DNA from: Peptostreptococcus canis
GTDB lineage: Bacteria; Bacillota; Clostridia; Peptostreptococcales; Peptostreptococcaceae
Direction of reading: 5' to 3'
NCBI RefSeq assembly: GCF_014229965.1
Contig: NZ_JABGBW010000001.1
Coordinates: 1 to 64,000, forward strand
Length of the DNA: 64,000 nt
Part shown: positions 21,057 to 63,261 of the stretch, piece after piece
Numbering within the stretch: position 1 is the stretch's first letter
How the letters are laid out: each line of letters opens with the position of its first letter
Position numbers and translations under genes: made by a program
Notes under the pieces: model-generated
Databases searched by the model: none
What the model saw: the letters and a program-made list of their open reading frames with translations, nothing else
Told to the model about the DNA's origin: nothing

Positions 21057-21088
21057 GAATATTATTATGATTATCTCTATGTTATAAT
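21057..21088 (+). promoter_or_regulatory. Promoter with Fur-box-like sequence before the surface protein gene
   Basis: Extended -10 TGTTATAAT (TATAAT at 21083-21088). Immediately upstream, 21057-21075 matches the 19-base Fur consensus at 13 positions. The AT-rich background raises the chance of random matches. Iron control would suit the haem-related domains of the gene. Confidence 0.4.
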
Positions 21089-21155
21089 ATAAAACAGTAA
21101 ATGAAAACAACATTTAATTATAAAGGATAATTACTACAAATATATGGAGGTTAAA

Positions 21156-24100
21156 ATGAGTAAAAGCAAAATTAGTATAGTCAGAAAAATAACATCAGTA
21201 ATGTTGGTGGCAACTTCAGCGGCAGCTTCTGTATCAGTTTTACCACAAAGAATAGTGGCAGAGGAACATTCGAAGAACGAATTTTCATCTAAGTCAGAAA
21301 TTGATAAACAGTTTCTTGAAATTAAAAAAGTGTCATATTCTAAAGACAGAAAAATGATTACGATTTCTTGTAATGGTAGATTAACAGAAAATAATCATGA
21401 ATTTTATGAAGCAATTTATAATAATATAAAAAAAATAGTTGTAAATGAACATAGTTATAAAGAGGGATTTAGGGTTAATTTGCAGCCAGAAAAACGAGAA
21501 ATTTTCATTGAAGATATTAATTTAAAAGACAATAAAATCGAAAGCCTGATATTATATACAAAAGATAATAAAACAATAAGTTGGAAAAAATCAGATGCTG
21601 GTAATGATGGAAGTGTCGATTCTCATGAAGAAAATGGAAATACAGAAATAATTGATAAACCTGAAGTAAATATTTTACATAAAATAGATATTATAAAAGG
21701 AATTGGTTTAAAAAAAGGTGAATTTGGATATTTTTATTTAGATTTAAAACCGGAATATGATAATCAGAAAGAAAAGTTTAAGAACGATATAAAATCAATA
21801 GTAGTAAACAAAAAAACGGTACCTTTATACAAGTTTAGAGAGCTTACTCGTATGTATAGTTATTCAATTGACAGAAAGAAGTGGGATTCTTTTGGTATAA
21901 ATACTACAGAGGATGAAAATAATAGAGTTACTATTACTTTTAAAAATGGTGATAAAATAGAATGGCCTAAGGGAGATTTAAGAGATAATAGTTCTGAAAG
22001 TATTGTAGAATCAAGTGTTAGTGAGAATGATCCTCTTTATACTTTTGAGGCTATTGATGATTTTAATATAAACAATTCAGAAGATTTTTATATAAATTTA
22101 AAAACTAGATATGGTGAAAACGAAGAAAAGCATATAAGAGGAATAAACTTAGATGAGAGAAAAGACGAATTTGTGGCGAACATTGAAAGTATAAGTATAA
22201 ATAATACTGAATTTTCTACTTCTAGCTTGTCAACATCTCATAGAACCAGAACCATAACTTTAACTGAAGAAGCAAAAGAAAAATTGAAATTTAATTTTAA
22301 AGAAAGTGATAATATATTAAAGATAACTTTTAAAAATAAAAAATCTATTGTTTTACCAAAGGGTTCTTCTTCATCAAATACAACTGACTCCGGTAAAGAA
22401 GAAGAATTATCACCAAAACCATCTGTTCCATCTGATAAAGAAAAGATATATAATTTGAAGGATAAGCTTCCGAAGGGAGAGTACACTATAGGATTTGAAG
22501 CAAAGTATGCAGATGGTAGAGATGGATACTCTATGTTACAGGGCTTTTTTGATGAAAGAGTGAAGTTGGTCGTTAAAGAAGATGGTTCTATGGAAATAGA
22601 GATGCTTTGCTTATTATTTGCAGATGGCTTATATGATTTAGCTATGCAAAATGATGGAAAGTGGAGCTCAACAATTGAAAAGAAAAATTATGGGAATCCA
22701 GATGTAAATAATAAATACAGGCAGGCTATATTTAAGTTACCTGTTAAAAATTTAGATCAAGTACATCTTGCCGGGGTTATAGTCGGATATATGGGAGCTG
22801 TTGAAACTGATAAAGGTCAATTTGATAAGTATACAAGGGTAAATATAAACTTCAAAGAGGGAATCAAAAAAGGATTTACTAATTATAAACAAGTGGAAGA
22901 GGATGAAAAAGCTAGGATATTAGGAGAAAAAGTATTAAATAGCAGATTAATTGCAAATGGATTTGATAGTAATCAAGGAAAAGTTACCAAGGAAAATATT
23001 AAAAATTTTAAAGGTGATACAGTAAATTTAGGTTCAGATTATGATAAAGATAAAGAAACGGAAGGAAAAGATATTTATGACATATCTATTTTAAAAGATT
23101 TGGGACCTTCAGTGAAACGTCTAGTCTTAACTGGAAATGCTATTTCTGAATTGCCAAAAGGAATTTTTGATGGAATGACAAATTTGGAGGAGATAGATTT
23201 AGCAGCAAATAGATTAGATACTTTGGATAAGAATTTATTTGCGAAAAATAAGAAATTGAAAAAAATACGTTTGTCTTCTAATAAATTAGGAACTATTGAT
23301 AAAGACTTTTTTATCAATAATCCTGAAATAGAAGAAATAGATTTATCAAATGCATGGTTAAAGGATATACCGGGTGGATTATTTAAAAATAATAGTAAAT
23401 TGAAAATACTTCAATTAGAATCAAATAATTTATTTGAAATGGCTGATGATGCATTCAGTCATAATGAAGATCTTAATTTTTTAAATATATCAGATAATAA
23501 TTTATCAAAAATGCCAAGTAGTGTTTCGGAATTGACGGGTCTTTCCAAAATATATATGCAAAATAATAAAATCAAAGAATTACCGGATTTAAGCAAATTA
23601 AAAAATCTTTTTGAATTAAATGTTAGCTATAATGAATTAGATAATATTGATGATAGAGTTTGGGAAAATATTATGACTAATAGAAAGAATAATGTTAAAG
23701 TAAATCTTATTCATAATAATTTAAAAAGGGTTCCCGTAGAAATATTAAATAAAGGTAGAAATGTAATAAGTGTAGATTTGGCATATAATTATTTACCAGA
23801 AAAATATGAAGAAATTTTTAATGGAACTGACAGTGAAAAAACCGGTGTAAACCCTAGAAATCATTCTAGCTATAACCCTCAGAAAACAGCAGTGAATTTG
23901 AATGTAAGAATTGATGCTAAAAATATAATTGTTGATTCTACCAAGAATTTGACTATGCTTGATCTTGCTAATTGGAGATATCCAAGAGGAGGGGCTATTG
24001 GAACTGTAAAGCCTGATAAAAAGTCTTATCTTGAGGAATTAAAAGAATATAAATCAGTCGAAGAAATGGTAAAGGCAAAAAGTGATAGCTATAGCTGGAA

Positions 24101-25697
24101 GATAAATACTAAAGTAGAAAGAATCAGAAATGGTCATAAAAGCCTTGTGGATGAAAAAATTACTACTGAAAAAGAAGATGAAAAGTTTATTTTTAATGAC
24201 TTGCAAATGAGAGAGGGAGATAAATATATTGTAACAAAGACTCTTTTATTTAGGAGAGATGCTTCTAATGGATATGTTAAAGAAGTTTCTGTAACAACTA
24301 CTCTAGATGCACCTAAAGATGATAAGAAAGATATTAAAAGATATGCAGTTCCAGTTAAATTGATGCATGCTTACGAAGAAAAACCTTCTATGGGTAATGC
24401 AGCTTTATTACCAAATGCAATTGTAGAAGAAAAGGATGGATTGAGAACAGTATATATTTCTTTTAAAGGTATGAATGCGCTTAATCTATATGGTCATTTA
24501 ACAAAAGTTTTTGTATATCCGGGTTCTAATAAAAATGGAGTTCCAAAAGAATCTTCTGTAGAAAAAATGTTTAAAGATAAAGGACTTGACGGAAAAGAAA
24601 AAGATTTTATAAAGACTGTATCTTTTGTTAGAGAAGGAAATAGAGAGAATGTAATTTGGTTTAAAGTTTATGTAGATGCTATGGATGCTTTAACTCCAAG
24701 TAAGACTGAAGGGTCCGGCGCACAAGATGCTAAGTTAATATTTGACTGGTCTAAAGCTAAAGAGACAGATAAAACTTGGCCGGAAGATGTATTGGACAAA
24801 GAAAATAAAAAAATTGATGAAATTTTAAACAATGCAACTAGATTACAGGGAAGAGATAGATACGGAACAGCCATTTCTATAAGCAAAAAATTCTTTAAAA
24901 ATGCAAATAACGTAGTACTTGCAAGTGGAGAAAATAATGCCGATGCATTGGTATCAGCATCTTATGCTAAGTTGAAAGAAGCTCCAATTCTATTGACTAA
25001 AAAAGATGAAATGCCTGTTGATGTAATAAAAGAAATAGAAAGATTAAATACAAAGAATATTACGATTATAGGCGGAAATACTTCAATATCTTCAGAAGTT
25101 GAATCTGTCCTGAAAGGTAAAGGGTATAATGTAAACAGAATCTCCGGTAAAGATAGATATGAAACATCCACTATATTAGCTAAAGATGTAATGAAAATGG
25201 GAAATTCTAAAAAAATAGCTGTGATTAATGGAAAAACAAGTGCAGATGCATTGACAATTTCTTCATTAGCCACAAAATATAATTTGCCTGTCGTGATGAT
25301 TAAAAATATAGGAGCCAATGACATTTCTATCAAGGAAATAAATACATGGGGAATAAGTGAGGCGATTATTGCCGGTGGAGATTCTTCTGTGTCGGAAGAT
25401 ACATTACATTCTATAAAAGCTTATATAAAGAGAAGAATAGCAGGAAAAAACAGATATGAAACTGCATTAAAAATAGCAAAAGAAAGCTATCCAAATAGCA
25501 AAAATATTTTTATAGGAAATGGAGAAATATCTGTGGATTCTTTATCTGCCGGAGCTGTAACAAGTAGAGTAGAAGCGCCTATACTTTTAATAAAAAAAGA
25601 TAAAATAGATGATAACATAAAAAAAGCTATTGAAGAAATGGGAACAGGAGAAGCCTACATACTAGGAGGAAAAAGTACAATTGCCCTTGGCAAATAA
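21156..25697 (+). CDS. Shr-like haem/haemoglobin-binding surface protein (HID-NEAT-LRR-CWB2)
   Basis: A 1513-residue secreted protein. Residues 1-36 form a signal peptide (basic start, helix, cleavage near VAEE). Three ~100-residue repeats follow at ~45-390, each with 'i..Ivvn...' strands and an I/F-T-hydrophobic-K end; they resemble the haemoglobin-interacting (DUF1533) domains of streptococcal Shr. A NEAT-like domain lies at ~425-560 (KGEYTIGFEA, YSMLQGFFDE, KYRQAIFKLPV). Eight or nine leucine-rich repeats follow at ~645-850. A second, weaker NEAT-like segment lies at ~1070-1215 (MGNAALLPNAIV, KLIFDWSK). Three CWB2 wall-binding repeats end the protein (~1228-1513; LQGRDRYGTAI, ISGKDRYETS, IAGKNRYETA). 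The ATG at 21156 was chosen because GGAGG precedes it; the ATG at 21144 overlaps that site. Probable role: capture of haem or haemoproteins at the cell wall. Domain calls are by eye. Confidence 0.8.
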   Translation: MSKSKISIVRKITSVMLVATSAAASVSVLPQRIVAEEHSKNEFSSKSEIDKQFLEIKKVSYSKDRKMITISCNGRLTENNHEFYEAIYNNIKKIVVNEHSYKEGFRVNLQPEKREIFIEDINLKDNKIESLILYTKDNKTISWKKSDAGNDGSVDSHEENGNTEIIDKPEVNILHKIDIIKGIGLKKGEFGYFYLDLKPEYDNQKEKFKNDIKSIVVNKKTVPLYKFRELTRMYSYSIDRKKWDSFGINTTEDENNRVTITFKNGDKIEWPKGDLRDNSSESIVESSVSENDPLYTFEAIDDFNINNSEDFYINLKTRYGENEEKHIRGINLDERKDEFVANIESISINNTEFSTSSLSTSHRTRTITLTEEAKEKLKFNFKESDNILKITFKNKKSIVLPKGSSSSNTTDSGKEEELSPKPSVPSDKEKIYNLKDKLPKGEYTIGFEAKYADGRDGYSMLQGFFDERVKLVVKEDGSMEIEMLCLLFADGLYDLAMQNDGKWSSTIEKKNYGNPDVNNKYRQAIFKLPVKNLDQVHLAGVIVGYMGAVETDKGQFDKYTRVNINFKEGIKKGFTNYKQVEEDEKARILGEKVLNSRLIANGFDSNQGKVTKENIKNFKGDTVNLGSDYDKDKETEGKDIYDISILKDLGPSVKRLVLTGNAISELPKGIFDGMTNLEEIDLAANRLDTLDKNLFAKNKKLKKIRLSSNKLGTIDKDFFINNPEIEEIDLSNAWLKDIPGGLFKNNSKLKILQLESNNLFEMADDAFSHNEDLNFLNISDNNLSKMPSSVSELTGLSKIYMQNNKIKELPDLSKLKNLFELNVSYNELDNIDDRVWENIMTNRKNNVKVNLIHNNLKRVPVEILNKGRNVISVDLAYNYLPEKYEEIFNGTDSEKTGVNPRNHSSYNPQKTAVNLNVRIDAKNIIVDSTKNLTMLDLANWRYPRGGAIGTVKPDKKSYLEELKEYKSVEEMVKAKSDSYSWKINTKVERIRNGHKSLVDEKITTEKEDEKFIFNDLQMREGDKYIVTKTLLFRRDASNGYVKEVSVTTTLDAPKDDKKDIKRYAVPVKLMHAYEEKPSMGNAALLPNAIVEEKDGLRTVYISFKGMNALNLYGHLTKVFVYPGSNKNGVPKESSVEKMFKDKGLDGKEKDFIKTVSFVREGNRENVIWFKVYVDAMDALTPSKTEGSGAQDAKLIFDWSKAKETDKTWPEDVLDKENKKIDEILNNATRLQGRDRYGTAISISKKFFKNANNVVLASGENNADALVSASYAKLKEAPILLTKKDEMPVDVIKEIERLNTKNITIIGGNTSISSEVESVLKGKGYNVNRISGKDRYETSTILAKDVMKMGNSKKIAVINGKTSADALTISSLATKYNLPVVMIKNIGANDISIKEINTWGISEAIIAGGDSSVSEDTLHSIKAYIKRRIAGKNRYETALKIAKESYPNSKNIFIGNGEISVDSLSAGAVTSRVEAPILLIKKDKIDDNIKKAIEEMGTGEAYILGGKSTIALGK

Positions 25698-62953: not shown

Positions 62954-63172
62954 ATGAATCTATCCATTGCACCAATAGGTGTTCCGATGAAGATAGTAAA
63001 AATAAAAATCAAGGGCGAACAACAGAAACAACTTGCAAACATGGGATTTATTGAAACGGCAAATATAACGGTAGTTTCTGAAACTGTAGGTAATCTGATT
63101 GTGAATATAAAGGACAGTAGAGTTGGACTTGGCAAGGATTTAGCTCAAAAAATAATTGTTACTCCTGCTTAG
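62954..63172 (+). CDS. feoA: FeoA-family protein (first copy)
   Basis: A 72-residue SH3-like protein: LSIAPIGVPMKIVKIKI, then a NMGF turn and IVNIKDSRVGLGKDLAQKIIV, the FeoA pattern. FeoA is thought to support the FeoB ferrous-iron transporter. AAAGGAGGG site. Two feoA copies precede feoB, common in clostridia. Confidence 0.9.
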   Translation: MNLSIAPIGVPMKIVKIKIKGEQQKQLANMGFIETANITVVSETVGNLIVNIKDSRVGLGKDLAQKIIVTPA

Positions 63173-63261
63173 ATAAATATCAGGGGTAATGTTTTTTGTG
63201 TTTAGTTGATGAAAAAAACTATCATTATTATTTAGAAAATGAGAAGATTGGAGGAAAATTT

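Follow-up and report, generated by a model that had tools for sequence, protein, structure and literature searches.

Shr of Streptococcus pyogenes is a membrane-anchored protein with the domain order HID-HID-linker-NEAT1-LRR-NEAT2. IlsA of Bacillus cereus is built as NEAT-LRR-SLH, with a single NEAT and a non-covalent wall anchor, and is not known to have a Shp-type partner. Crystal structures of Shr have identified Met390/Met475 and Met997/Met1107 as the axial haem ligands of its two NEATs, and loss of both methionines abolished haem binding by NEAT1 and drastically lowered that by NEAT2 (PMC12796733). The same 2025 study regarded methionine coordination as a trait that sets S. pyogenes apart from the NEATs of other Gram-positives, and suggested as the reason for its use that a neutral methionine pair can hold both ferrous and ferric haem (PMC12796733). 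Among clostridia, ChtE of Clostridium perfringens was noted in 2016 to keep the methionine ligands of Shp; neither LRR nor CWB2 has been reported for the Cht locus, and deletion of chtDE left growth on haemoglobin unimpaired in vitro (PMC5026354).

The gene described here lies in a 64 kb window (the whole stretch of DNA that was analysed) from a Peptostreptococcus genome of 2.06 Mb. Its product is likely to be a wall-attached, divergent Shr-type haem receptor with a swapped anchor, feeding an importer of the Shp/IsdE type.

Domain order and possible Fur control of the receptor gene

The open reading frame occupies positions 21144/21156-25697 of the forward strand. A Shine-Dalgarno-like GGAGG stands between the in-frame ATG codons at 21144 and 21156, so that the latter is the likely start, as had been chosen in the first-pass annotation, giving a coding sequence (21156-25697) of 1513 aa. 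A signal peptide (aa 1-36, 21156-21263), recognised by eye in the translation, is followed by three N-terminal repeats, NEAT1, a leucine-rich repeat block, NEAT2, and three CWB2 repeats, all encoded on the forward strand. The leucine-rich block (aa ~646-859, 23091-23732) was placed between the two NEATs by Pfam (LRR_8, E=1e-32), and the wall-binding repeats (24840-25692) matched PF04122 three times (E=5.6e-50) as well as the Cwp6/Cwp8 structures. The first-pass annotation had proposed this order, and the Pfam and PDB comparisons agree with it for the NEAT-LRR-NEAT core and the CWB2 anchor, as does inspection of the translation for the signal peptide; the three repeats are also real, and it is their description as HID-like that found little support. 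Its likening of the protein to Shr, with a clostridial wall anchor, was likewise borne out by the matches to Shr NEAT1 and NEAT2, LRR_8 and CWB2. No C-terminal membrane anchor of the Shr kind is present, the C-terminus consisting of CWB2 repeats by Pfam, and the protein is for this reason classed as a variant predicted to work like Shr rather than as Shr in the strict sense.

A Fur-like box had also been noted at the promoter, and the candidate, which matches at 15 of 19 positions (21057-21075, forward strand), was the best 19-mer of the 64 kb, with a shuffle P of 0.01-0.02; its surroundings are 84% AT. Just downstream, at 21080-21088, is an extended -10-like sequence, TGTTATAAT, and the box probably overlaps the -35 region of this predicted promoter. 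The position and rank of the box are suggestive of Fur-type control of the receptor gene, and the genome carries three FUR-family genes. At the haem operon described below, the Fur box scored 14/19, no better than chance by shuffling. The Feo operon reported elsewhere in the window was recovered as feoA, feoA and feoB, starting at 62954 and continuing beyond 64000, with a weak Fur-like box near 63211; Pfam scans of 20 ORFs of the window missed it because feoB extends past the window end.

Predicted methionine ligands and the haem-uptake operon

Profile searches, proposed earlier as the check on the NEAT assignment, gave matches to PF05031 for NEAT1 and to the Shr structures for both domains. 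NEAT1 (aa 437-567, 22464-22856, forward strand) exceeded the Pfam cut-off (39.6 and 42.6 bits in two scans, vs 32.8), and the sole PDB match of this fragment was the Linker-NEAT1 of Shr (9w5z, E=4e-27, 39% identity). NEAT2 (aa ~1061-1207, 24342-24776, forward strand) alone fell below the Pfam cut-off at 16.7 bits, and as a single sequence it matched Shr NEAT2 (9w5y) at E=0.2 only. With the NEAT of the NEAT-CWB2 protein encoded in the haem operon, which does pass the cut-off (34.1 vs 32.8), it shares 47% identity. A family profile made from NEAT2 and two operon paralogues had Shr NEAT2 9w5y as its best match (E=2.2e-12), with IsdA and the remaining NEATs ranked lower.

Aligned with 9w5z and 9w5y, the protein has all four methionines of Shr, those of SMLQG and YMG in NEAT1 and of SMGN and DAMDA in NEAT2, and each domain is predicted to form a bis-Met haem pocket. 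The NEAT1 pair is invariant in seven proteins and Shr, and the NEAT2-type pair is kept in every domain compared except one Clostridium domain, which is poorly aligned there. The Isd-type haem motif YXXXY is absent from the corresponding NEAT stretch, where methionine ligands stand as in Shr and Shp. These alignments argue against restricting methionine coordination to S. pyogenes. The first-pass annotation had taken loss of the haem-contacting tyrosines from both NEAT-like parts as the sign of a mistaken assignment; this was the wrong test, because Shr coordinates haem by two methionines (PMC12796733) and these are kept in both NEATs, and it would have rejected the Shr-type finding wrongly.

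The NEAT-LRR-NEAT and CWB2 architecture is strengthened by an uptake operon of the Shp/IsdE type in the same genome. This run of six genes, at 284.7-292.1 kb of contig C1, which also carries the receptor gene, encodes a double-NEAT protein, Shp (PF11545, 1.6e-48), an IsdE-type lipoprotein (IsdE equivalog, 5.5e-113, above cut-off), a FecCD permease, an ATPase and the 486-aa NEAT-CWB2 protein. Both methionine positions of Shp are kept in the alignment of all 11 Shp-type loci. The IsdE-type lipoproteins keep a methionine (AMxPD) and a histidine (xxxH), which we take to be the haem ligands, as in IsdE and HtsA. The same reading of these two residues is drawn from PMC5026354. The receptor gene stands about 260 kb from the operon and is unlinked to it in this genome; in a sister species (G001), a paralogous NEAT-LRR-NEAT-CWB2 receptor is encoded directly upstream of the haem operon. 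A gene for an AraC-family regulator adjoins the operon (L046 3692-4375, reverse strand; L054 2009-2713, forward strand), the family being assigned by Pfam in G000 and by similar position and sequence in G008, and it may respond to haem rather than to iron.

The N-terminal repeats and the possible source of haem

The three N-terminal repeats, R1 (21312-21593), R2 (21672-21977) and R3 (22032-22367), all on the forward strand, are 94-112 aa long; the same repeat occurs two to four times in receptors of sister species. AF2 gave confident models, with a pLDDT of 88.5 for R1 and 81.8 for R2. None of the repeats reached the threshold of PF07550 (HID), Pfam and PDB searches with the N-terminus alone returned nothing relevant, and a profile of the repeat matched the PDB only at chance level. 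True clostridial HIDs match the HID2 structure at 1e-14, so the sequence method does work on closer HIDs. Compared profile to profile, the repeats, with R1 among them, matched HID with a probability of 82% and a score of 34.0 over 23 columns around an I..V.VNG core. The controls scored no higher than 13.7 for 200 column shuffles and 15.8 for other parts of the same proteins. The HID profile had 21 rows, some of them duplicated sequences, and is hence shallower than this number implies. Foldseek searches with the R1 and R2 models, made without a HID model as positive control, gave no HID among the 50 matches listed, and those listed were weak and generic, of Ig-like or CBM-like type. The repeats are probably distant, divergent relatives of HID, and contact with haemoglobin by them is plausible. 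The three HID-like repeats of the first-pass annotation exist as repeats, and their HID nature is weakly supported by the 23-column profile match, with no match in Pfam or PDB and no HID among the fold matches listed. Its picture of haem piracy from host haemoglobin is supported in part: the Shr-type architecture and the uptake operon speak for the capture of haem, and haemoglobin as the specific source is plausible, the HID assignment being a twilight profile match only.

A haem receptor that draws on something other than haemoglobin is an alternative, given here slightly less than an even chance. The repeats would bind another host or food haemoprotein, the wall or mucus, and the NEATs would capture haem that is free or has been released secondarily. 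The lack of a PF07550 match, the shortness of the profile match, the generic Ig-like folds of the models with no HID among the matches listed, and a Shr-type protein in G094 that joins a different N-terminus (Fn3/CHB) to the same NEAT-LRR-NEAT core would all fit such a source, but in the HID profile match the VNG cores fall in register and the score is far above both sets of controls, and true HIDs stand at this position in related Clostridia. Were the protein chiefly an adhesin, with the leucine-rich block and N-terminal repeats binding host matrix and the NEATs as accessories, its long LRR block, which resembles those of host-binding LRR proteins, would be accounted for; this is unlikely, however, since the methionine pairs conserved in both NEATs, together with a full uptake operon, point to selection on haem handling. 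Very improbable is a receptor of the IlsA type in which CWB2 has replaced SLH: the order NEAT-LRR-anchor is the same, but here the LRR is flanked by two NEATs, the best PDB matches are Shr domains, and the ligands are methionine rather than tyrosine.

If the protein is a Shr-type receptor feeding the Shp/IsdE-type importer, as preferred here, it would be secreted and held non-covalently on the wall by its CWB2 repeats, as inferred from that family. The N-terminal repeats would recognise a host haemoprotein, most likely haemoglobin, which is a plausible ligand of the receptor. NEAT1 and NEAT2 would each hold haem between their two conserved methionines, and haem would then pass to membrane-tethered Shp, on to the IsdE/HtsA-type lipoprotein with its conserved methionine and histidine, and into the cell by the FecCD/ATPase importer. 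Expression would probably be derepressed under iron starvation by a Fur-family regulator, the box being suggestive.

Relatives and known systems

Of 391 sampled Clostridia, 6 carried NEAT1-type domains, as did 3 of 399 sampled members of the phylum; within the genus, a NEAT of any type occurred in four of nine genomes. A 2414-aa Shr-like protein (G526, L140 1724-8968) adjoins an importer ATPase and has a C-terminus resembling SLH repeats by eye. The protein of G094 (L107 1094-5968) lies beside a shp gene, its Fn3/CHB-type domains standing in place of HIDs. G000 (contig C12, L047 7370-13247) and G003 (L052 2392-8273) each encode a second large protein of the NEAT-CWB2 kind, 1463/1544 aa long, with secreted companions of ~220-330 aa and ~150 aa to which no family was assigned.

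It is tempting, though the case falls somewhat short of even, to see the bis-Met relay (from the Shr NEATs through Shp to IsdE) as a wider, patchy module of anaerobic Firmicutes, in which the NEAT-LRR-NEAT core is kept and the anchor (membrane, LPXTG, CWB2, probably SLH) and recognition repeats are swapped in each lineage. Since the N-terminal recognition repeats would differ between lineages, the target of those in this protein may be some haemoprotein different from haemoglobin. The receptor and its operon would extend the streptococcal methionine-ligand haem relay to anaerobes and offer a direct test of the reason for methionine use, as the holding of both ferrous and ferric haem would suit anaerobes even better than S. 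pyogenes. They would also be a case of separate evolution of receptor core, anchor and recognition module, a pattern of use in looking for the haem receptors of gut and mucosal anaerobes.

Shr, Shp, CWB2 and clostridial NEAT proteins are already known; their combination, and a double-methionine relay in anaerobes, were not found in the literature searched, where CWB2, NEAT and heme did not occur together and matches to "NEAT domain" with "Peptostreptococcus" concerned other genera. The Cht locus (ChtD/ChtE) of C. perfringens is likewise a case of clostridial haem uptake by NEATs. Nearer in architecture are HID-NEAT-LRR proteins from two members of the class Clostridia (G243, L104 6293-10351; G320, L103 7196-9736), which share the NEAT-LRR arrangement and NEAT1 methionine ligands and are followed by adjoining shp-type genes and an importer. 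They differ in having true HIDs (PF07550) and no CWB2, the anchor of the G243 protein being an LPKTG sortase signal and that of the Peptostreptococcus protein CWB2. IlsA resembles the latter in combining NEAT, LRR and a non-covalent wall anchor, but has one NEAT and SLH in place of two NEATs and CWB2. From Shr the protein differs in its CWB2 rather than membrane anchor, in N-terminal repeats that have diverged beyond the reach of the HID profile, and in the location of its gene away from shp in this genome, whereas the two have in common the order NEAT1-LRR-NEAT2, 39% identity between their NEAT1 domains, a pair of methionine ligands in each NEAT, and partners of the Shp and HtsA/IsdE types encoded in the genome.
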